A stretch of 64,000 nt of DNA, taken from assembly GCF_027913215.1 (NCBI RefSeq), contig NZ_CP115784.1:2604001-2668000 (forward strand), in the 5' to 3' direction. Below are positions 52,130 to 63,136 of the stretch, one piece after another. This DNA is from Paracoccus aerodenitrificans (GTDB lineage Bacteria; Pseudomonadota; Alphaproteobacteria; Rhodobacterales; Rhodobacteraceae). The position numbers and the translations under genes are program-made. Numbering within the stretch: position 1 is the first letter of the stretch; each line of letters begins with the position of its first letter. The notes under the pieces are model-generated. The model worked only from the letters and a program-made list of their open reading frames with translations. It made no database searches and was not told the origin of the DNA.

Positions 52130-52970
52130 GGGTCAGGACTCGTTCTCGATCATAACCAGAAGATGACGGTCGCGGCGAGCAGGACTGCAGAGAAGAAGGT
52201 CTCGGGGCAACGGTCGTATCGGGTGGCGACGCGCCTCCAATCCTTGAGTCGGCCGAACATGATTTCGATGCGGTTGCGGCGTTTGTAGCGCCGCTTGTCG
52301 TATTTGACGGGTTTCTTGCGCGACTTCCGACCCGGGATGCAAACCTTTATCCCCTTGTTTTTCAAGGCATCTCTGAACCAGTCGGCATCATAGCCCCGAT
52401 CGGCCAGCAGCCAATCCGCCTCCGGCAGGCTGTTCAGAAGTGCCGCTGCCCCGGTGTAATCACTGACTTGTCCGGCGGACATGAAGAACCCTATCGGGCG
52501 GCCCTTCGCGTCGGTGACGGCGTGCAGTTTCGTGTTCATGCCGCCTTTCGTTCGCCCGATCTGGCGCCCGCGCCCCTTTTTTTGATCCGCAGGCTCGAGG
52601 CCGTGCGGTGCGCTTTCAGATAGGTCGCGTCGATCATGATCGTCTTATGTTCGGCGCTCTCGGCGGCGAGGCCCACCATGAGCCGGGCGAAGGTCCCGTT
52701 CTCGCTCCAGCGCTTCCAGCGGTTGTAGAGCGTCTTGGCGGGGCCGTAGTCCGTCGGCGCGTCGCACCATCGCAAGCCATTACGATTGATGAATATTATG
52801 CCGCTCAGCACACGCCGGTCGTCAACGCGTGGCTTGCCGTGGGATTTCGGGAAATAGGGTTTCAGACGCTCCATCTGCGCGTCAGTCAGCCAGAAAAGGT
52901 TGCTCATAAATCAGGTCTCCTTGCAGAGCCTGAATCACGCAAACAGCCCGAAATCAATGGGTCTGGAGCC
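52130..52970 (-). mobile_element. IS5-family (IS427-like) insertion sequence, copy 2, 841 bp
   Basis: It has the same length and orientation as the copy at 12479-13319, with about ten base differences. It begins GGGTCAGGACTC and ends GTCTGGAGCC, with TA on both sides. The rejoined target would read AAGCT-TA-GCTT, a near-palindrome. It marks the left border of the glycan-modification block. Confidence 0.9.
52150..52907 (-). CDS. IS5/IS427-type transposase made by -1 frameshift (copy 2)
   Basis: Two frames (52907-52536 and onward to 52150) join by a -1 slip at the run AAAAAAAGGGG. Copy 1 has AAAAAAGGGGG at this place, so here the slippery run holds one more A and one less G, with total length kept. 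All DDE residues are present. Protein differences from copy 1 include TLYNRW for TLDNRW, FARLMV for FARIMV and FSAVLL for FSAILL. Confidence 0.87.
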
Positions 52971-53360
52971 TAGCTTCGGACATCTCTCTCTAGCCTATCA
53001 CCTTCAATCAACGAGAAGCAATTGTGATCGGTGTTTTTCTTGGTGAACCCTGCAATCGAGCGTCTTTGCGAATACCTACCCCAAACCGCCGAAGTCGAGA
53101 GTGACTCACAATCACGCTGGCACGAAGGTAGAGATCTTTCGAGATGAATTCCAACACCTGGTAATACAAGTATTTCGAAGGCATCTCTCGTCTGGCAACA
53201 GCCCATCCACCGCGTGACATAAGTGGCCAACGCGCTTTTCGAAAAGTTACCGAGTTTGACATATAAGGGTCCGCTACGATATTGCGTCTGCATAATTGCT
53301 TTAGCAAAAGCAGAAGAGTTTACCGGACGCTTCGCGTCACTTTGGCAGCTAGGTCAGACG
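52971..53360. other. Intergenic region at the IS/glycan-block junction
   Basis: About 390 bases between IS copy 2 and the first glycosyltransferase of the block. Minus-strand frames of about 100 residues exist but show no recognisable family, no ribosome site and odd composition, so they are not called. The segment is noticeably more A+T rich than the genes to its left and likely contains the promoter of the plus-strand block. Confidence 0.4.
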
Positions 53361-55640
53361 ATGCGGATCATTATTCACAGTGGAACAGCGCATGGTGTCG
53401 TTCAGGCTGTGCAGAACGCCTTGCATGCTGCCAGCAACCCGCTTCTGGCAGAGGGCGTGCTCTTTCCCAGTGAGGTTGTTAAGAACGGCGACAGCATTAC
53501 CCGCGCCGCGCTGCCCTTGTCCGAATTGCATCCGCTGGCCGCCTTAAATGGTCTGGCGGATCCGGTTGATCATCAGTTTCTGCTCGCTCGGGTCCGGGGA
53601 GGCCTGTCTCAGGCGGTTTCCCGGCATCGTCCACGGGTGATGATCCTCAGCCTGCCCGAGGCGGCGATATGGCTGGACTCTCCGCTGCTGCTGTCGGGAT
53701 TAGCAGGTCTGCTATCGAACTATTCAGACGATCTCCGACCTGTGCTTCACGCAGCTCACCCGTCAACCGCATTGACGGATCTTTATCTGACGCAGGTGGC
53801 AGCAGGGCGATCAACCGGGCTGGAGAGTGAAGGGCAGATTGCGCGGGACAAGAAGGACTGGTGGGAGGCAGCCACTTCGCTGCGTGAAAACCTGCAAGAC
53901 CCCGCTCGCTCGCCGCAGGACGCCCGCCTTCTGGCACCGATGCCCGTGGTCGACAGCCGTGGTACCGCCGAATTATGGGCTCAGGTTTTCGGCGCCGATA
54001 CGCTGACCATGCGCGAGCTGCCATTCGGGCCTGTATCTTCCACAACTTTGGCAGAAATTGCTGCCGATCTGGAGCTGCCTGTGTCTTTGCCGATCGAAGT
54101 GCCAGAGGTAAGGCGTCCATCTGTTCCGGTTTTGTGCCGGATGCTGACGGTGAATGCTGCGCTCTCTGGGCTTGAAAACGAAGTTGGACCGATACCCGGG
54201 GCACTGCGATCTGAAATCTTGGAGCGATGCTATGATGACCTTGGGCCGCTACAGCCGGTCGAGTTGGCACCGCTGACGGCACATCTGCGCCCGCTGGATG
54301 GCGGCGGCCCTGTTCCTGTGATCCGGCCCATGAGTGATTTCGACCCGCGTCCGCTGCTGGAGGATCTGCCGCCAGCGTTGGCAACATGGCACAGCGAGCG
54401 GCTGGAGGGCCGTTCACTTGCTCAATCCGGAACCGCAGCGATGGCTGAAAACGGGCAGTCAAAACCGGAGCCGCTATCTCCAGCCGCTGAAATACTTCTT
54501 GATCAGCCCGCTCGCGACGCGTTGTCGGGTTTTGCAGGTACGGCCTTCTGGCCTCATAACCGGGTTGTTAAACTGGATGAAGCCGCGGAGATGCCGCCCT
54601 TCCCGGACGAGCCGGGCGAGCTGACCAATTCCCTGATTATTGCCTGCATGAAGAATGAGGGGCCTTACATCATTGAATGGGTTGCCTATCACCGTGCAAT
54701 CGGCATCGATCACTTCTTGATTTTCACCAATGATTGCAGCGACGGCACAAACGAAATTCTCGATCGTCTGGCCGAGCTTGGATATGTCACGCGTGAAGAT
54801 AACGAGGACTGGAAAGGCAAATCACCCCAACAGAACGCGCTTAACAAGGCGATGCGTATGGATGTTGTGAAACAGGCGGACTGGTTGATCCATATCGATG
54901 TTGATGAGTACATTAATATCCGTATCGGACAGGGCACAATGGCCGAACTTATTTCAGCAATGGGCCCGGATGCGACCAACCTGGCCATGACATGGAGACT
55001 GTTCGGCAATGGCGGCGTCGACGATATAGGCGATGGCTCGGTGATCAGCCGCTTTACGGGCTGCTCGCCGGCCTATTGCCCCAAACCGCACACGATCTGG
55101 GGCTTCAAGTCGATGACTCGGAATAACGGTGCATACGGTAAATTGTCGTGCCATCGCCCCAACAAATGGGACCAGACAACCCCGGTAAAATGGCTGAACG
55201 GTTCACTCACGGACACCACAAGGAAGTTCCGCGATAAAGGGTGGCGCAATTCGATCAGCAGCGTCGGCTTCGATGCCGTGCAGTTGAACCATTATGCGTT
55301 GCGCTCGCGAGAAAGCTTTCTCATCAAAAGGCAGCGGGGCCGGGCCCTGCATGTCGATCGTTCGATCGGGCTTAATTACTGGGTCCGCCATGACTGGAAC
55401 CAGAATGAGGACCGGACCATCCTGCGTCAGATTCCGCGCATGGAAGCAGTCAAGCGCATATTGTTGGCCGACCCGGAGCTCGCACGGCTGCAGGAACAGA
55501 CGCTGGCATGGCACCGCGCCCGGGCCACTGAGCTGCGCAATAGCGAGGCGTTCGACGAACTATGGAACCAGACCACACAGGCTGACCTTACAGACCCCGA
55601 GCGTGTTGCCTATGCGACTGCGGCGGGCATGGAGAGCTGA
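53361..55640 (+). CDS. Two-part protein: degenerate sulfotransferase-like N-terminus plus GT2-type glycosyltransferase
   Basis: A 759-residue protein. The C-terminal part (from about residue 425) is a glycosyltransferase of the Glyco_tranf_2_4 type: NSLIIACMKNEGPYIIEWVA, DHFLIFTNDCSDGTNEILD and the D-x-D site WLIHIDVDEYINI. The N-terminal ~400 residues begin MRIIIHSGTAHGVVQAVQNA and GVLFPSEV. This has the spacing of Rhodobacteraceae sulfotransferase-like proteins (usually HIGTxKTGTT...GVLYP), but the PAPS-loop Lys and Thr residues are missing. ATG 53361 was chosen because the first beta strand begins there. It is the first gene of the block; its sugar and acceptor are unknown. Confidence 0.75.
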   Translation: MRIIIHSGTAHGVVQAVQNALHAASNPLLAEGVLFPSEVVKNGDSITRAALPLSELHPLAALNGLADPVDHQFLLARVRGGLSQAVSRHRPRVMILSLPEAAIWLDSPLLLSGLAGLLSNYSDDLRPVLHAAHPSTALTDLYLTQVAAGRSTGLESEGQIARDKKDWWEAATSLRENLQDPARSPQDARLLAPMPVVDSRGTAELWAQVFGADTLTMRELPFGPVSSTTLAEIAADLELPVSLPIEVPEVRRPSVPVLCRMLTVNAALSGLENEVGPIPGALRSEILERCYDDLGPLQPVELAPLTAHLRPLDGGGPVPVIRPMSDFDPRPLLEDLPPALATWHSERLEGRSLAQSGTAAMAENGQSKPEPLSPAAEILLDQPARDALSGFAGTAFWPHNRVVKLDEAAEMPPFPDEPGELTNSLIIACMKNEGPYIIEWVAYHRAIGIDHFLIFTNDCSDGTNEILDRLAELGYVTREDNEDWKGKSPQQNALNKAMRMDVVKQADWLIHIDVDEYINIRIGQGTMAELISAMGPDATNLAMTWRLFGNGGVDDIGDGSVISRFTGCSPAYCPKPHTIWGFKSMTRNNGAYGKLSCHRPNKWDQTTPVKWLNGSLTDTTRKFRDKGWRNSISSVGFDAVQLNHYALRSRESFLIKRQRGRALHVDRSIGLNYWVRHDWNQNEDRTILRQIPRMEAVKRILLADPELARLQEQTLAWHRARATELRNSEAFDELWNQTTQADLTDPERVAYATAAGMES

Positions 55641-55683
55641 AATTGCCTAATATTTCGGTCAGGGCTTCAGCGGAACGTCTGAT

Positions 55684-56418
55684 ATGGCGGAGCAGTTGAT
55701 GTCGATCCTCGTTCATTCGCCAACGATCGAAGTCGGCGGGGCGCTCAACGCGAACGCCGTCAGCTCCGAGCTGTCCGAAATTCCCCCGGACAAGCTTTCA
55801 CGTGCCGTTCCGGCAGCCGATATGTCGACCCTGCGAGCTCGAACAACGCGGATCTTCCAGCTTGGTTTTAACAAATGTGGGACGAGCAACATTTACCGGT
55901 TCCTGCAGCGGTCCGGGATCTCTGCGACACGGTTCAATCGCGGCATGCTGGCGACAAGGATCAAGGCAAATATCGAGGCAGGACTCAAGCCCTTGGCGGG
56001 CGAGTTCACACGTTTTACCGCTTTTGCCGATATCCACTATCTGACACGAAATTCGGTTATTGAAGGCAATCGTTATTTCCGTGAGTTTTACCAATATTAC
56101 CCCTCATCCTATTTCATCCTTAATACACGCAACAAAGAAGAATGGATCCGTGCGCGTCTGGCGCATGGAGATGGGGCTTATGCCCGACGCTACAGTCGTG
56201 CGCTTCGTTTGAGAAATGAGAACGAAGTGATTCAGCAATGGTCGGAGGACTGGGACCGGCACCACAGGAGCGTAGTGGATTACTTTGCGGACAAGCCTGG
56301 TAGGTTATTGGTGTTCGACATCAACAAGAGCAACCCTCAGGAACTTGTCAATTTTTTAGCGGCTGATTTCATCACAAATTCCGCAAACTTTCTCCACGAG
56401 ACCGACACGATCGATTAG
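55684..56418 (+). CDS. Sulfotransferase-like protein
   Basis: A 244-residue protein. Residues about 57-80, IFQLGFNKCGTSNIYRFLQR, match the 5'-phosphosulfate-binding loop of sulfotransferases (G-x-x-KCGT-S/T). SYFILNTRNKEEWIRARL corresponds to the 3'-phosphate-binding Arg/Ser region. The C-terminal RLLVFDINKSNPQELVNFLA is also usual. It would move sulfate from PAPS to a hydroxyl, here plausibly of a glycan. No PAPS synthesis genes lie in the window. The first ATG (55684) and one five codons later are both possible. Confidence 0.75.
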   Translation: MAEQLMSILVHSPTIEVGGALNANAVSSELSEIPPDKLSRAVPAADMSTLRARTTRIFQLGFNKCGTSNIYRFLQRSGISATRFNRGMLATRIKANIEAGLKPLAGEFTRFTAFADIHYLTRNSVIEGNRYFREFYQYYPSSYFILNTRNKEEWIRARLAHGDGAYARRYSRALRLRNENEVIQQWSEDWDRHHRSVVDYFADKPGRLLVFDINKSNPQELVNFLAADFITNSANFLHETDTID

Positions 56419-56574
56419 GATCTCTGCGGCGGTATATCCCGGTGGTTTGCTTCATCACTGGCGGGATGCCCCTACAGAGGCCGCTTTGCGCTCGGGTGGC
56501 GCGAAGCAGTTGCATGTGCGCTTTATTTTCACAGAACACGTGTTAAGAACCTATAGCAAAAGGAGAGCGACTTA

Positions 56575-57579
56575 ATGGCCCACGAAACTCCAGCAGTCAC
56601 CGGCTCAGACAGCGCGGCAGGGCATCACAAGATCGCCCTTTTCGGCACCGGAATATCTCTGCGTCTGGCCGAAAAACTGCCGGGCTTCATCAATGCCGAA
56701 CCAGCTCCTTCTCTCGCATCCGAGGCGCTGTGCCTGCGCTATGGCTACAGGGGTTTTTCCGCTCGTACGGGCGAAATCGCGAATCTTGCGGGCTTGCGTC
56801 AACTTTTCTCGGCAGCCCTGACTGAAACGCCGGTGGCTGCTTGGCAGCGCACAGATGGACGGTTTTCAGACCCGCTGCGTCCCAGGGTTGATCCGGAAGG
56901 GCTTAGCTCTGCTGAGGAGGTGGCCGAGATGCAAGAGCAGCACCTTCTCGCCGTTCGCCAAGCCATCGGAATTGCTGACGAGGTTTTGCTTGTTCTGGGC
57001 GGAGCAGCACATGGACGCGACAAGGCCTCTGGTGCGATCTGGACATCTGTTCCCGACACTACTTTCCCCAGTGAGCTCCGTGCACGGATTGAGCCATATT
57101 TTTCCGGTTTCAACGAACTGGAAAATGATTTCGCAGAGATCTGGCGCCTATTGCAGGACGCAAATCCCGGAGTAAAAATCACCGTCGCTCTGGCTCCGCC
57201 AATGCCCGGAGAGACATTGGCGCGCGAGGAGCAGCACCAACTGACCTGCCTGCGCGTTCTAGCCGAAGAGTGGGCATGGCGATTTGCCAATGTTGGCTAT
57301 CTGCCAATATGGGATCTGGCTCTGGCGAGGGGTAGTGAGGATAGCTTTGCGTTGGCCGAAATACTGATCGCTCAGGCATCGCCTCCGACCGAGGCGGAAT
57401 CCGCATCAAGCGCCTCCAGTGATGACAATGACGACGCTGATATCGATACCGCGAGCGATAAAGAAGATCCGCCACCCTCTGATGAAGACCAAAACGCTCG
57501 TCGTCGCAAAAAACGCAAGAATCGTGCGGCACCTTCTACTGTCTGCGAGGATGAGTTGCTTGAGGCGTTCTCGCGATGA
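56575..57579 (+). CDS. GSCFA-like protein lacking the GSCFA motif, with charged C-terminal tail
   Basis: A 334-residue protein that I align by eye to the intact GSCFA domain at 58397-60109: FSDPLRPRVDPEGLSSAEEV pairs with FDTLRPNIEPEGFASVNDL, and ANPGVKITVALAPPMP with INPGLRVLLTVSPVPL. Where the relative has TAGSCFAQHVG this one has ALFGTGISLRLA, so the nucleophile Ser and Cys are gone. It may be a non-catalytic partner. The last ~60 residues are low-complexity, first acidic (DDNDDADIDT) and then basic (ARRRKKRKNR). GGAGAG precedes the ATG, and the gene overlaps the next by four bases. Confidence 0.65.
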   Translation: MAHETPAVTGSDSAAGHHKIALFGTGISLRLAEKLPGFINAEPAPSLASEALCLRYGYRGFSARTGEIANLAGLRQLFSAALTETPVAAWQRTDGRFSDPLRPRVDPEGLSSAEEVAEMQEQHLLAVRQAIGIADEVLLVLGGAAHGRDKASGAIWTSVPDTTFPSELRARIEPYFSGFNELENDFAEIWRLLQDANPGVKITVALAPPMPGETLAREEQHQLTCLRVLAEEWAWRFANVGYLPIWDLALARGSEDSFALAEILIAQASPPTEAESASSASSDDNDDADIDTASDKEDPPPSDEDQNARRRKKRKNRAAPSTVCEDELLEAFSR

Positions 57580-58358
57580 CAAAGACCCGCCTGTGCCTGA
57601 TCGGTAACTCTCATCTGGCCGCGATGAAGCTGGGGTGGGACAAGCTGGTCGAGGAAAATGATCCGTTGATAAACGGACACTCCATCACCTGTTACGGTGC
57701 GCCGCGCGATATGCTGAGGCATGTTGAAGTGCGTGATGGCTGTCTGGTGCCGACCTCCCCGAAAGTGCGTAAACAGTTTACGATGCTCTCGGGGCAGGAG
57801 CGACTGGATCCTAACGATTACGATGTCTTTTTGCTTGTCGGTCTCGGTGCAAGTTTCAAACGCGTCCTGCGACTTTATAACGGGTGTCGCTGGCCGGGTG
57901 TAGGTAAACAGCCACATATGCCGCTGGTCAGTTCCGACTTCGCCCGCAGCCTTCTGATCGAAGGCTATCTTGGCACACGTTTGTCGGACATGGGTCAAAA
58001 ACTGATGAGTGTCACGAACAAGCCGGTCTTCGCTCTTCACGAACCCCTCTGGTCGCCGCGCACCAGCCCCTGCCCGGGAGATCACGACTTCGGTTGGCTG
58101 AACGCCGTCGCAAGCGGCGACGGAACAGCGCTTGCAGCATTATTCCGCGACTCTTTGGCTGCGGCGATTGCACCCTGGGTCTGCCTGCTTCCGCAGCCTG
58201 ACTCGACGATAGAAGAACACATCATGACCCGACCGGAGTTCAACCGTGACGCCGATAAAGATATCTCGGGCTCCGGTGGGGGTAAGGACGCTGCCCATAT
58301 GAACCGCGACTTCGGTGCAGAAATGTGGCGACATCACCTTGGGGCAATGCGACCCTGA
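57576..58358 (+). CDS. SGNH-hydrolase-like protein
   Basis: A 260-residue protein without signal peptide or membrane helix. It begins RLCLIGNSHLAAMKLGW, where Ser12 sits in a GxSH context like block I of SGNH/GDSL enzymes. Near the end DAAHMNRDFG offers the D-x-x-H pair of block V (Asp238, His241). The middle is divergent and the oxyanion residues of blocks II and III are not obvious. It may be an esterase or acyltransferase acting on the same glycan. It overlaps the preceding gene by four bases. Confidence 0.6.
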   Translation: MTKTRLCLIGNSHLAAMKLGWDKLVEENDPLINGHSITCYGAPRDMLRHVEVRDGCLVPTSPKVRKQFTMLSGQERLDPNDYDVFLLVGLGASFKRVLRLYNGCRWPGVGKQPHMPLVSSDFARSLLIEGYLGTRLSDMGQKLMSVTNKPVFALHEPLWSPRTSPCPGDHDFGWLNAVASGDGTALAALFRDSLAAAIAPWVCLLPQPDSTIEEHIMTRPEFNRDADKDISGSGGGKDAAHMNRDFGAEMWRHHLGAMRP

Positions 58359-58396
58359 ACGCGGCAAACCAACCCAGACCAGAATGCGAGATCAAA

Positions 58397-60109
58397 GTGA
58401 CCCAGTCTTCTCCCTATCGCGGACTTCCTGCATCGGCCTTTTGGCGCACGGGTTTTGCGGAAACGAGCTATCCCCCACCCGGCCTGTATGAGCCCCGTCA
58501 TCACCTGACCAAAAGCGACCGCATTGTGACTGCCGGGTCATGCTTCGCACAGCATGTCGGACGCACACTTCGCAATAATGGTTTCAACGTCCTCGACAAA
58601 GAACCTGTGTCCGAGGATCCGCGCGATATCGGCGATCAGGCACAGGCCTATGGATATGGGCTATACACCGCCCGCTACGGTAATATTTATACTGCCCGCC
58701 AGCTTAAGCAGATACTGCTTGAAGCACTCGGGCGCTACACGCCAGCGGATCCGGTCTGGGAACGGGACGGGCACTATTTCGATACGCTTCGCCCCAATAT
58801 CGAGCCGGAGGGGTTTGCGTCGGTCAACGACCTGCGTGCCGCACGCGAACATCACCTCCAACGTGTGAAAGAGGCCTTTACGGAAGCCGATGTCTTCGTC
58901 TTTACCCTTGGCCTGACCGAAGCGTGGTTGCACCGGCCGACAGGGCAGGTCTACGCCATTGCACCCGGCACGATCGCGGGCAGTTATGATCCCGCGCTGC
59001 ATGTTTTCAAGAATTTCCGCCATCACGAGATCATGTCGGATCTGCGTGAGACGCTGGATTTACTGAAGACCATCAATCCCGGCCTGAGAGTATTGCTAAC
59101 CGTCTCACCAGTCCCTCTGACGGCGACCGCAACCGGCGATCATGTCCTGCCAGCAACAATCCTCTCTAAATCGGTGCTGCGGGCCTGCGCCGGCGAAATG
59201 CGAGAGGATTATCCTGAGGTCGATTATTTCCCATCTTACGAAATCCTCACCTCAAGTCGCGGTGGTGCAAAGTTTTTTGAAGACAATCTGCGCAGCGTGA
59301 CGGCAGATGGTGTCGCGCTTGCAATGAGGACCTTTGTCACCGCGCATATGCCAGGCGCACATGCAGTGCCGGAAGAGACGGCAACCCGCGCGAAGAAAAA
59401 ACAGCCGGGAGCTTCGAAAAAGAAATCAAAACAGGCGGCTGCGGCGAACGAAGCCGAGCCAGGACGCGTTCCAGCCGAACGTGCAAATGTCGTCGCAACA
59501 ATCGCTGGACTTGCCATTCCTGCATCACCGATCAGTTCCCGTAAAAAGTTCCTCGATCGCATTTCTGGTCTTGAGGATGCCAAACCCGATGATGTCGCCT
59601 GTGCCGAAGCAGTCGTCCGGGAGGGTGATCGTGTACTGGAAATTGGTGCACGCCTCGGTGTTGTCAGCGCATTCCTTGCCAAAACAAACCTGCCTGCAGC
59701 CATACGCTCCTATGAGGATAATGGCGACCTAATCCCCCATATTCAGGAACTTTACGCGATCAATGGCATAAGTCAGCAAGTCGATTTGCGTCCTGACACA
59801 GTCCGTGCCCGGCCAGGCGGCAAACCATCAGAACATTACCGCTCAGAGGCACCCGGGCACAGAGAAGTACAATTCAGCGACATTGTAAGCGAGTTCAAAC
59901 CCGACGTTCTGCTGATGAATATGCGCGGGGATGAAGTTGATTTTCTCATGCAGGCAGACCTGAAAAGCTTGCGTGGCCTCGCCGTCCGCTGGCACCCTAA
60001 AATCACCGGCATTGAAGGGCTACGCAAATGCAAGCGGCGATTGAAAAAAGATGGCTTCGAGGTCATAGAGCCCGTATCGACGCGCTTGACTTGGGCAGTT
60101 ACGCGATAG
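58397..60109 (+). CDS. GSCFA-domain protein fused to FkbM-like methyltransferase domain
   Basis: About 570 residues. The N-terminal GSCFA domain has SPYRGLPASAFWRTGF, the name-giving DRIVTAGSCFAQHVGRTL (GSCFA at 47-51) and LTVSPVPLTAT. A Lys/Ala-rich linker (around 335-375, KKKSKQAAAANEAE) leads to a C-terminal domain with the SAM-binding pattern REGDRVLEIGARLGVVSAFL and the FkbM-like DVLLMNMRGDEVDFLMQAD. The start is uncertain: GTG 58397 gives the usual GSCFA-family N-terminus, while GTG 58325 would overlap the previous gene. GSCFA proteins are SGNH-like and linked to polysaccharide modification; the methyl acceptor is unknown. Confidence 0.72.
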   Translation: MTQSSPYRGLPASAFWRTGFAETSYPPPGLYEPRHHLTKSDRIVTAGSCFAQHVGRTLRNNGFNVLDKEPVSEDPRDIGDQAQAYGYGLYTARYGNIYTARQLKQILLEALGRYTPADPVWERDGHYFDTLRPNIEPEGFASVNDLRAAREHHLQRVKEAFTEADVFVFTLGLTEAWLHRPTGQVYAIAPGTIAGSYDPALHVFKNFRHHEIMSDLRETLDLLKTINPGLRVLLTVSPVPLTATATGDHVLPATILSKSVLRACAGEMREDYPEVDYFPSYEILTSSRGGAKFFEDNLRSVTADGVALAMRTFVTAHMPGAHAVPEETATRAKKKQPGASKKKSKQAAAANEAEPGRVPAERANVVATIAGLAIPASPISSRKKFLDRISGLEDAKPDDVACAEAVVREGDRVLEIGARLGVVSAFLAKTNLPAAIRSYEDNGDLIPHIQELYAINGISQQVDLRPDTVRARPGGKPSEHYRSEAPGHREVQFSDIVSEFKPDVLLMNMRGDEVDFLMQADLKSLRGLAVRWHPKITGIEGLRKCKRRLKKDGFEVIEPVSTRLTWAVTR

Positions 60110-60159
60110 ACAAAAAATTGCTCAGGATGCGATAGATACTTCAGGACAGGATCACAGAT

Positions 60160-61035
60160 ATGCAGAATACGGCGGCGGCAGTGACAATGGTTCGCGACGA
60201 TCCGTTTTTTCTGCGAATCTGGCTGGATTACTATGGCAATTTGTTCGGCCGCGAAAACTGCTACATCATCAACCACGGTCGCGGCGAGGAAGTCGCTTCA
60301 ATGGCCGCCGGATGCAACGTGATCGGCATTCCGGGCGATCACCATAAGAACTTTGAGGTGAAGCGGTGGCGGCTTCTGAATAATCTCACTATGGGTCTGA
60401 GAAGCTATTACTCCCATGTCATCGTTGGCGATGTTGACGAATTCGTCGTCGTCGATCCTGCAAGCGGGATAGATCTGTTGAAGCGCCTCTCCAAGGCCCC
60501 GACAGAGCGCGTGCTGACTCCACTGGGGCTAGAAGTTATTCACAGGCTGGAGCTTGAACCAGAGCCCATCGTGGACAAGGTATTGGGTCCACGGCGGCAT
60601 GTTCGGGTGGTGCCGCGTTATTCCAAACCCTGTGTCGTATCCGCTATCACCAGGATTTCTCGCGGCGGGCATTTCAGTCGGTATGACAAGTTGCATACAC
60701 CCGATGACCTGTACATGCTGCACTTAAAATACTGCGACTTCGCCAATTACGTGGACACCTTGAACGCCCGGAATCAGATGACCAAGGAGACTGGGGTCGG
60801 GTTCAAGCAAACCTCAATCGGTCGTCACTGGTTTGCTGAAGGACGCGGCGAAGATCGCGCGGTTTTTCAGGCTTTCGACACGCTGAGACTGGTGGATGGC
60901 TTCGATATGTCTCCCTATCGCAACGAAATGCATCGCACATTCCAGCCACGTGGCGACACCGGTTTCTGGGAGTTTTCCAATCCAACCTACAAGGAACAGT
61001 TCGAGCTGCCTGAGCGGTTCTTTGGGATTCTTTGA
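60160..61035 (+). CDS. Glycosyltransferase of the Glyco_tranf_2_4 type
   Basis: A 291-residue protein with AVTMVRDDPFFLRIWLDYYG at the N-terminus, YIINHGRGEEV, and the metal-site motif HVIVGDVDEFVVVDP. It shares this plan with the C-terminal half of the 53361 gene. The MVRDD...WLDYY start corresponds to the family's CMKNEGPYIIEWVAYH. It is the last gene of the block before the insertion-sequence nest. Donor and acceptor sugars cannot be told. Confidence 0.82.
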   Translation: MQNTAAAVTMVRDDPFFLRIWLDYYGNLFGRENCYIINHGRGEEVASMAAGCNVIGIPGDHHKNFEVKRWRLLNNLTMGLRSYYSHVIVGDVDEFVVVDPASGIDLLKRLSKAPTERVLTPLGLEVIHRLELEPEPIVDKVLGPRRHVRVVPRYSKPCVVSAITRISRGGHFSRYDKLHTPDDLYMLHLKYCDFANYVDTLNARNQMTKETGVGFKQTSIGRHWFAEGRGEDRAVFQAFDTLRLVDGFDMSPYRNEMHRTFQPRGDTGFWEFSNPTYKEQFELPERFFGIL

Positions 61036-61474: not shown

Positions 61475-63136
61475 GGCTCTGTCGCGCATTTGGTGCAGTT
61501 GAGTTGCCATAATGCTATATCTCGGCGAACTTGAAGGAGGTTGCCGATGGGTTCATGGTTTTCGCGGCGAGATTTTCTACCGGCGGGGTTGAAGGCCGAC
61601 CAGGTTGAGCTTGATGGCAACAGGATCCGGGTCCACGCCCGTTCCCTGGATGCCTCGGCAGCATGTCCCCGCTGCGGCGCGGTCTCTCGTCAATTCCACA
61701 ACAAGTATTGGCGTCGGCCAGCCGATCTCCCCGCCCATGGCCGAGAAGTTGAACTGGTGCTGCTGGTTCGTCGATTTTGTTGCCGCGCCGTAGGTTGCCC
61801 AACGAAGATTTTTTCAGAACGGTTCCCGCCTTATGTCACGCGGCCACATGCGCGCCGGACGTCACGCTTGCAGGAACTGGTGCGTCACATCGGCATTGCT
61901 CTCGGTGGGCCCCCGCGCAGGCGCTTGCCGGACGGCTTTTTGCTACCGGTGAGCAAAGACACGTTCCTGCGCAGCGTTCGGGCGAAGACCGAGGGGGCTG
62001 TCGCGGACCCCCGCGTGGTGGGTATCGACGACTGGGCATGGCGGAAGGGACAGCGCTACGGCACGCTGATCTGCGATCTCGAATGGCGGAAGGTCATCGA
62101 TCTGCTGCCCGACCGGGAGCCCGCCACTGTGGAAGCGTGGCTCCGCGCGCGTCCCGGGATCGAGATTGTTGCCCGTGATCGCAATGGTGGCTACGGCGGT
62201 GCCACCGCGCGCGCCCTGCCGGACGCGGTTCAAGTCGCGGATCGTTGGCATCTGTTAGAGAATGCAAGTGCCGCCTTCCTGACCGCCGTGCAGCGGAACA
62301 TGCCAGCCATTCGCAAGGCTATCGGGGTAGAGACCCTCGATCCGAGGCTTTTGACGGCAGCGGAAAGGCTGCAATTCGAGGGTTTTCAAAGGCGCCAGCA
62401 GACCAACCACATGGTCCGCCGAATGGCAGACGAGGGTGTTCCCATCAAACGGATCGTGCGCCTTACCGGGCTGAGCCGCGGTTTGGTCCGCCAGATCACC
62501 CGCGGTGAGCGAGAAGATGTTTTCCGCATCCGCGAGAGCAGCTTGACCGCTTGGTTGCCTCGGCTGGAACGGGAGTGGAGCGGCGGATGCCGTAATGGCG
62601 CAGAACTCTGGCGCCGGTTACGGGCTGATGGATTTCAAGGCAGTCTCCGGGTCGTCGGCGAGTGGGCAACACGCCAGCGACGCGCCGAACAAGCGTTGCC
62701 GTCCGGAACAGGAAAGTCGCCACCTGCCCGAAGGATTGCGCGGCTCCTGACCATGGGACGAGATCATCTGACTCGTGCCGATGCAATCCAGGTCGCGCGG
62801 ATCGAAGCGGCGCGACCAGCTCTGGCAACCGCCCGGGAACTGACCGACCGGTTCACTGACATGGTGCGAAACGCCCGTGAGAATGCCCTGGCCGCCTGGC
62901 TCGACGAAGCCGGAGGACAGCATGCTCTCATCCTTCGCCCGTGGCCTTCGTTGCGATCAGGCAGCAGTTGCCGCCGCGCTGCGGGAACCTTGGTCGAACG
63001 GGCAGACCGAGGGCCAGATCAATCGCCTGAAGACGCTGAAACGCCAGATGTATGGTCGCGCGAATATCGACCTGCTCAAAGCTCGGCTTGTCGCGCCATC
63101 ATAGTCGAAAAGGTGCATCAACTTTGAGTCAGAGCC
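61475..63136 (+). mobile_element. ISL3-family insertion sequence, about 1662 bp
   Basis: The ends GGCTCTGTCGCGCATTTGGTGCA (61475) and, in inverse, GGCTCTGACTCAAAGTTGATGCA (to 63136) form imperfect inverted repeats typical of ISL3. CAAAACT stands directly outside both ends (61468-61474 and 63137-63143), so the insertion is recent enough to keep its target duplication. It carries one transposase gene with a late frameshift. Confidence 0.85.
61547..63104 (+). pseudogene. ISL3-family transposase, broken by one inserted base near the C-terminus
   Basis: The reading frame starts at ATG 61547 after GAAGGAGG. The N-terminal zinc-finger-like part has CPRCGAVSRQFHNKYWRRPA, CCRAVGCPTKIFSERFP; the DDE core includes VVGIDDWAWRKGQRYGTL and VVARDRNGG-like AVQVADRWHLLENA. 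Around 62912-62916 (GGAGGA) one extra G shifts the frame. The expected end EPWSNGQTEGQINRLKTLKR, including the last catalytic Glu, continues in the next frame to 63104. The unshifted product ends in unrelated residues, so the copy is probably inactive unless the shift is bypassed. Confidence 0.8.

Follow-up and report, generated by a model that had tools for sequence, protein, structure and literature searches.

Why would a locus keep a GSCFA protein that has lost the GSCFA motif next to an intact one? The question is raised by a 64,000-nucleotide stretch of the 3.56-Mb genome of Paracoccus aerodenitrificans (hereafter the window; contig NZ_CP115784.1, positions 2604001-2668000). Six co-directional open reading frames lie between window positions 53361 and 61035, and an open reading frame check and a Pfam scan verified all of them at the places given in an initial annotation made from the DNA letters alone. 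That annotation read the six genes as one set that builds or decorates a surface glycan. We find that the conserved unit is a quartet, in which two GSCFA proteins have parted a cysteine site from a C-terminal tail. On balance, we favour the reading that the core of the block is a split O-acyltransferase, resembling PipF and PipG of Pseudomonas entomophila, that decorates a glycan. According to the available text of PMC9487903, GSCFA was in 2022 an SGNH family without any member of known function. Unless stated otherwise, the window features described below lie on the + strand.

Reciprocal loss in two GSCFA proteins

The first of the two GSCFA genes (56575-57579) encodes a protein that reaches 28.2 bits against the GSCFA profile PF08885 (cut-off 25), and this along profile positions 75-210 only. 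Its predicted fold is of the SGNH type. The GSCFA motif is not present, as the initial annotation had noted, and neither is the catalytic cysteine. Judged by its sequence, the protein is a divergent paralogue and not a working GSCFA member; we call it dGSC. It keeps a C-terminal tail, CEDELLEAFSR (57544-57576), which begins with Cys324; a tail of this kind is present in 18 of 18 dGSC proteins. The predicted structure places a short helix (residues 325-333) in this tail, behind a low-confidence linker. The second gene (58397-60109, with an alternative GTG start at 58325) encodes an intact, PipG-like GSCFA protein (PF08885, 176.6 bits) fused to an FkbM-like domain. Its GSCFA motif (58535-58549) contains Cys49 (58541-58543), followed by His53 in a C-x3-H arrangement.

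The losses in the two proteins are reciprocal. All 11 intact partners have the catalytic-motif cysteine and none of the 18 dGSC proteins does, whereas the tail residues C343, E344, L347, L348 and F351 are present in none of the former and in all of the latter. Nor does the tail motif occur anywhere in the full-length intact GSCFA proteins of the window and ten further loci. The comparison covered positions kept in at least 95% of 121 ordinary GSCFA proteins, in an alignment with the window's intact GSCFA cut to 345 residues. On average, the intact partners retain 87% of these conserved positions, and dGSC retains 34%. Five residues (E69, R94, D130, R133 and H154 in P0010 numbering) are shared by at least 120 of the 121 ordinary proteins, all intact partners and all dGSC proteins.

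In ordinary GSCFA proteins of this subfamily, the two elements occur together. The motif cysteine and a C-terminal Cys-acidic tail are present in 121 of 121 such proteins from the protein database, a tail rate that is biased upward because the query carried the tail: the set consists of P0009, obtained via the dGSC profile, and the 120 proteins listed of 7998 scored with the tailed query. A tail of the form C[ED][ED]xx[LMIA], counted within the last 32 residues, also ends 62 of 62 ordinary, motif-bearing GSCFA proteins from genomes and plasmids. These were gathered by searches with the window's GSCFA, dGSC and SGNH proteins and with the PF08885 family, together with plasmid loci; eight loci (split module, partial or duplicate), repeats judged by the last 120 residues and reading frames below 330 amino acids were excluded. 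A further set of 27 loci excludes the window, genome G068 and the partial L027. Two loci, L020 and L033, fail the partner rule yet show a GDS[HN] start by eye. Two Streptomyces GSCFA proteins from clusters of detoxin-like layout carry the tail form C[ED]DxxLDYY. The tail motif is missing from the C-terminus of six of six distant GSCFA proteins (L192-L197), which share about 28-32% identity with the window's and come from five proteobacterial genera and a Bacillus. Around this distant, tail-less type, polysaccharide genes adjoin L195 and L196, and FkbM genes adjoin L197; L193 carries no annotation.

A midpoint-rooted tree, in which the long dGSC branch may attract, resolves dGSC and the intact partners each as one clade (support 100/99). 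The intact-partner clade falls inside the ordinary GSCFA proteins with an SGNH neighbour, beside L006, L007 and L009 (support 99/96). In four pairs, the ratio of nonsynonymous to synonymous substitution rates (dN/dS) is 0.19-0.46 for dGSC versus 0.07-0.19 for intact GSCFA. Judged from these ratios, dGSC is evolving faster than its neighbours, yet under purifying selection, and we rejected the idea that it is a pseudogene on the same values.

The tail might instead be a mere ribosome-binding site of the next gene. Across 12 dGSC genes, the GAG of L-E-A-F is identical in all 12, as a Shine-Dalgarno sequence would need. However, the other eight codons of CEDELLEAF each vary synonymously somewhere among these genes, and ordinary GSCFA proteins with an upstream partner (L019, L049, L120 and L121) keep a C[ED][ED]-type tail. 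Because of this synonymous variation, and because the tail is kept where the partner lies upstream, we rejected a ribosome-binding site as the whole story.

A conserved quartet

Between the two GSCFA genes lies a gene for an SGNH-like protein (57576-58358). A search with this protein gave a match in 44 of 295 genomes of the family. In 25 of 28 fetched loci (the window and G068 excluded), a GSCFA-motif frame lies on the same strand as a G-x-S-H frame within flanks of about 1.5 kb. Genome G068 carries dGSC, SGNH and GSCFA genes in the order of the window and, downstream of them, a relative of the block's first glycosyltransferase. A wider scan, with the aligned SGNH proteins of the window and G068 as query and one genome each of 84,980 species as target, yielded 11 loci: Rhodobacter sp. 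Har01, R. viridis, two R. capsulatus strains, Rhodobacter sp. KR11, two Cypionkella, Tabrizicola, Pseudorhodobacter, Stagnihabitans and the G068 contig.

Homologues of the 56575, 57576 and 58397 genes are adjacent, in one order and on one strand, in 11 of 11 of these loci, among which L125 and L127 are of one species, L124 and L126 are of one genus, and L129 is the same contig as G068 (L094), the source of half of the search alignment. Genes in these loci were called by a hexamer-based script. Wherever the contig was long enough (10 of 10 loci), a homologue of the block's first glycosyltransferase gene lies 3' of the trio, as the next gene in seven loci and past two opposite genes in three. 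The conserved unit is a quartet of motif-less GSCFA, SGNH-like protein, intact GSCFA and glycosyltransferase. Among the other Pfam-scanned neighbours in the 11 loci are GT61 glycosyltransferases and one methyltransferase match, weak and short of its cut-off.

The co-occurrence of the three central genes, which the initial annotation had proposed as a check, was borne out, with no scattering seen in the 11 loci. Its wider claim, that all six genes form one set, was not: at E 1e-4, the called genes of the 11 loci contain no homologue of the sulfotransferase, the FkbM part or the second glycosyltransferase, which look like local additions. Eight of eight same-genus loci examined (9-14 kb each) contain long-form homologues of the first glycosyltransferase but no trio. 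On these comparisons we rejected both a single conserved six-gene pathway and the idea that the first glycosyltransferase is bound to accompany the trio.

The dGSC and SGNH genes are tightly joined. They overlap or touch by four nucleotides in the window and in five of the 11 relatives, and by one nucleotide in another five, with an eight-nucleotide gap in one. Of the mid-block overlaps first described, this one (56575/57576) stands, while that between the 58397 gene and its predecessor exists only if the GTG at 58325 is the start. The tight junction would fit a dGSC that acts as a brake or decoy, binding the SGNH protein by the shared tail and holding that protein inactive until the intact GSCFA displaces dGSC. 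So would the retention in dGSC of the five shared residues and the tail, but not of the cysteine or most other motif-region positions. We nevertheless regard such a brake as quite improbable, since a pure decoy leaves the loss of the tail from the intact GSCFA in 11 of 11 cases unexplained.

Among 100 other genomes searched from the window's genus, 20 gave an SGNH match, far weaker than that of the window (best E 1.2e-23 versus 8.9e-159), so that the split module looks rare in this genus. It was likely acquired by transfer. A class-wide search with the dGSC profile matched nine of 289 genomes; apart from the window's own gene, these matches were taken for ordinary GSCFA proteins, judged from score and length.

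The SGNH-like partner and known acyl-transfer systems

The 57576 protein matches nothing above the Pfam cut-off, and its earlier description as SGNH-like proved sound: the predicted fold is SGNH, and alignment places the block I serine at Ser12 (57609-57611) and the block V Asp-x2-His at Asp238 (58287-58289) and His241 (58296-58298). Across 35 aligned sequences, S12 is conserved in at least 90%, and D238 and H241 are invariant. The model (pLDDT 90.7) matches the folds of SGNH esterases and O-acetyltransferases, mostly esterases. The protein might therefore be an esterase that removes or edits acyl groups, with the GSCFA proteins as accessory binders, and sequence and fold cannot separate a hydrolase from a transferase. 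We consider this unlikely, because the pairs stand among glycosyltransferase or nonribosomal peptide synthetase genes, and because PipF/PipG, the one such pair that we know to have been tested genetically, is needed to add an acetyl group.

As far as the available text of that 2025 study (PMC12828459) goes, the GSCFA protein PipG and PipF, with PipD, are needed for O-acetylation of a peptide. The P. entomophila genes pipG and pipF are adjacent, the residues found important in vivo are Ser18 and His211 in PipF and Cys47 in PipG, and a pipG deletion is complemented only together with pipF. There, as in the window, the gene for a cysteine-bearing GSCFA protein adjoins that for a small SGNH-like protein in which Ser, His and Asp are present. 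PipG (Cys47/His51) shares its C-x3-H spacing with the window GSCFA (Cys49/His53), and PipF shares its D-x2-H spacing with the window SGNH protein, which starts with an N-terminal G-N-S-H. The systems differ in that PipD-PipF-PipG has a peptide acceptor, the third subunit PipD and one GSCFA, whereas the window has an extra, motif-less GSCFA with a tail, and glycosyltransferases. The 'possibly acylated' glycan of the initial annotation can thus be given a more specific form, since the recurrent pair of SGNH-like and GSCFA proteins appears to resemble proteins of O-acetylation.

Profile comparison relates the window SGNH group to the partners of ordinary GSCFA proteins (100%, E 1.4e-48), and these in turn to a profile built from three sequences, two of them Streptomyces partners and the third from Leisingera (97.2%, E 4e-11). 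The detoxin-like Streptomyces clusters have GSCFA and then its partner, as do ordinary Rhodobacteraceae pairs.

Several points weigh against a PipF/PipG-like assignment. A direct comparison of the window SGNH profile with the Streptomyces partners fails (hhalign 7.5%), so that the link runs only via the ordinary family, and one of the three sequences in the last profile, that from Leisingera, does not come from a detoxin cluster. The likeness to PipF, PipG and PipD is drawn from published residue numbers, not from their sequences. Because the available text of PMC12828459 does not list PipF Asp208 or PipG His51 among the important residues, mutants support the shared spacings only in part. The same text reports that pipDFG in Escherichia coli gave no acetylation, and its authors leave the role of Cys47 open. 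No relative of Streptomyces SpcZ was found at E 0.1, and equating SpcZ with PipD is a guess. Finally, the tail is also carried by two of the 62 GSCFA proteins whose neighbour has an alpha/beta-hydrolase-like motif and by five of the 62 whose partner is unrecognised by the rule; the tail therefore need not bind PipF-type proteins.

Other GSCFA neighbourhoods vary in their partner. At the second GSCFA locus of the window's genome (L112:8615-9619), and at L115:8034-9020, L116:8078-9040 and L028, the GSCFA gene lies 3' of a gene for a protein of 320-334 residues that is alpha/beta-hydrolase-like by eye or motif and not an SGNH partner; the L112 upstream protein has no Pfam match. The ordinary GSCFA and SGNH pair of the Rhodobacteraceae has the same families and adjacency as the module and differs in its single GSCFA with both motif and tail. 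In nine of 20 neighbourhoods, such a pair lies between two coenzyme A (CoA)-transferase-type genes (L095:11585-14822, L096, L098, L100, L102-L105 and L108), with PF01144 checked for both halves in L095 only; a tenth locus, L094, fell in one of the clusters without having this arrangement. These genes may be linked metabolically to the acyl donor.

Two further acyl-transfer systems invite comparison. WcbI of the Burkholderia pseudomallei capsule is, in the available text of PMC4104973, a proposed polysaccharide acetyltransferase that uses Cys14, binds CoA and is said to need an unidentified partner. The window SGNH protein differs in having no Pfam match to WcbI (PF18588) up to E 1; WcbI is also not among the 50 fold matches listed for its model, which excludes nothing. 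A GSCFA gene of Alloyangia pacifica has a WcbI-family gene as its immediate neighbour, and this suggests that the acyl-transfer partners of GSCFA proteins may be of several kinds. As for the SGNH domains of PatB and lipopolysaccharide acetyltransferases, Pfam finds no membrane acyltransferase domain in the six genes, and the partner here is a GSCFA protein. Sequence searches for solved relatives gave chance-level matches only, for both profiles.

The accessible parts of the open full-text literature that uses the word GSCFA describe no motif-less paralogue, tail or split. Searches for papers on the R. capsulatus capsule, O-acetyl groups, detoxin acetyltransferases and SGNH pseudoenzymes turned up nothing on the module beyond PMC12828459 and PMC9503745, and the genes named for the R. 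capsulatus capsule in the available text could not be matched to this locus.

In the split O-acyltransferase that we favour, the SGNH-like protein would use its Ser12-Asp238-His241 triad to load an acyl group, most likely acetyl, on the serine, and would act together with a GSCFA protein that needs its Cys49 to pass the group on to the acceptor. Ordinary members combine the Cys site and the flexible C-terminal tail in one GSCFA. In the module, these functions would be divided, the 58397 protein keeping the Cys site and the 56575 protein keeping the tail as a non-catalytic subunit. Sequence or structural models show the gene order, the reciprocal loss, the conserved triad and the predicted folds of the 57576 and 56575 proteins; complex formation, acyl transfer, the donor, the acceptor and what the tail does are inferred. 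The tail could dock the partner or carry the acyl group; its invariant cysteine favours more than docking, although the data do not decide. A bolder version, which we rate as a rather long shot, makes the tail cysteine on its flexible linker a swinging thiol arm that moves the acyl group from the SGNH serine to the GSCFA cysteine, much as a carrier protein would. The arm would then be supplied in trans by a pseudo-enzyme without an active site, in a three-protein relay of charging, carrying and transferring.

Glycan setting, local additions and flanking elements

A glycan, built by the linked glycosyltransferases, is the probable acceptor. The first of these glycosyltransferases (53361-55640; scanned by Pfam from a GTG at 53223) has the extra N-terminal domain initially described, in that a C-terminal PF13704 domain (76.5 bits, cut-off 27.5) follows some 400 residues without a Pfam match (53361-54560). 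The second (60160-61035) is short and scores 28.7 bits against the same cut-off. The two are of the same type in that both are PF13704 proteins; no meaningful BLASTP alignment exists between them. The 244-residue sulfotransferase-like protein (55684-56418) passes PF17784 (Sulfotransfer_4) at 30.1 bits (cut-off 22.8), as expected from its first description, and the genome has an APS kinase for sulfate donor supply. In the supposed GSCFA-FkbM fusion, the GSCFA part is clear, whereas the FkbM-like methyltransferase domain (approximately 59500-60106, the C-terminal part of the 58397 protein) gives no FkbM Pfam match up to E 1. It is matched by six of six fetched relatives at 34-38% identity, and the three of these that were Pfam-scanned all pass PF05050.

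Comparable genes occur in other members of the family. Some GT61 glycosyltransferases bear a fused FkbM-like domain that is related to that of the window (L169:2015-3601 and L170:1-1659), and sulfotransferases beside GSCFA genes recur. In Alloyangia pacifica (L117:7368-10122), three genes stand in a row, namely a sulfotransferase match (weak, below the cut-off), a WcbI-family member and a GSCFA gene, and cysN and cysD lie close by; in Octadecabacter (L121:8148-8927), a sulfotransferase lies directly 3' of GSCFA.

Both edges of the block carry insertion elements. On the left is an IS5-family element (52150-52907, - strand), of which the genome holds at least 32 copies matching at least 833 of 841 bases (40 of 70 candidates scored). 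On the right is an ISL3-family transposase (61541-63127, + strand; NF033550, 263 bits), whose Pfam transposase profile was matched over positions 1-105 of 240 only and whose end appears to run on in another frame (gene 62922-63104). These elements, a block GC content of 56.2 versus 59.6 for window positions 1-52000, and local additions not found in relatives would all suit a gathering of independent decorating enzymes between insertion elements, the split being drift without mechanism. We find this very doubtful in view of the tail residues invariant in 18 of 18 dGSC proteins, the gene order common to all 11 loci, which span several genera, and purifying selection.

The split O-acyltransferase reading retains a role in glycan modification, which is plausible because glycosyltransferases occur in the block and in its relatives and because GSCFA genes stand among polysaccharide genes on several plasmids; what falls away from the earlier proposal is the six genes as one pathway. 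The probable action of the block is to add acetyl-type groups to a surface sugar. The sulfotransferase, the FkbM domain and the second glycosyltransferase would be later local additions to this decoration, and sulfation and O-methylation of the same glycan are guesses.

The analysis also identifies a C-terminal motif that recurs in the GSCFA subfamily partnered with PipF-type proteins and is absent from six of six distant GSCFA proteins. The module parts the Cys site from the tail naturally, so that each function can be removed alone, and Rhodobacter capsulatus, a laboratory organism that carries the module, suggests itself as a test system. The split arrangement thereby offers a way into the mechanism of a widespread and poorly understood enzyme family.

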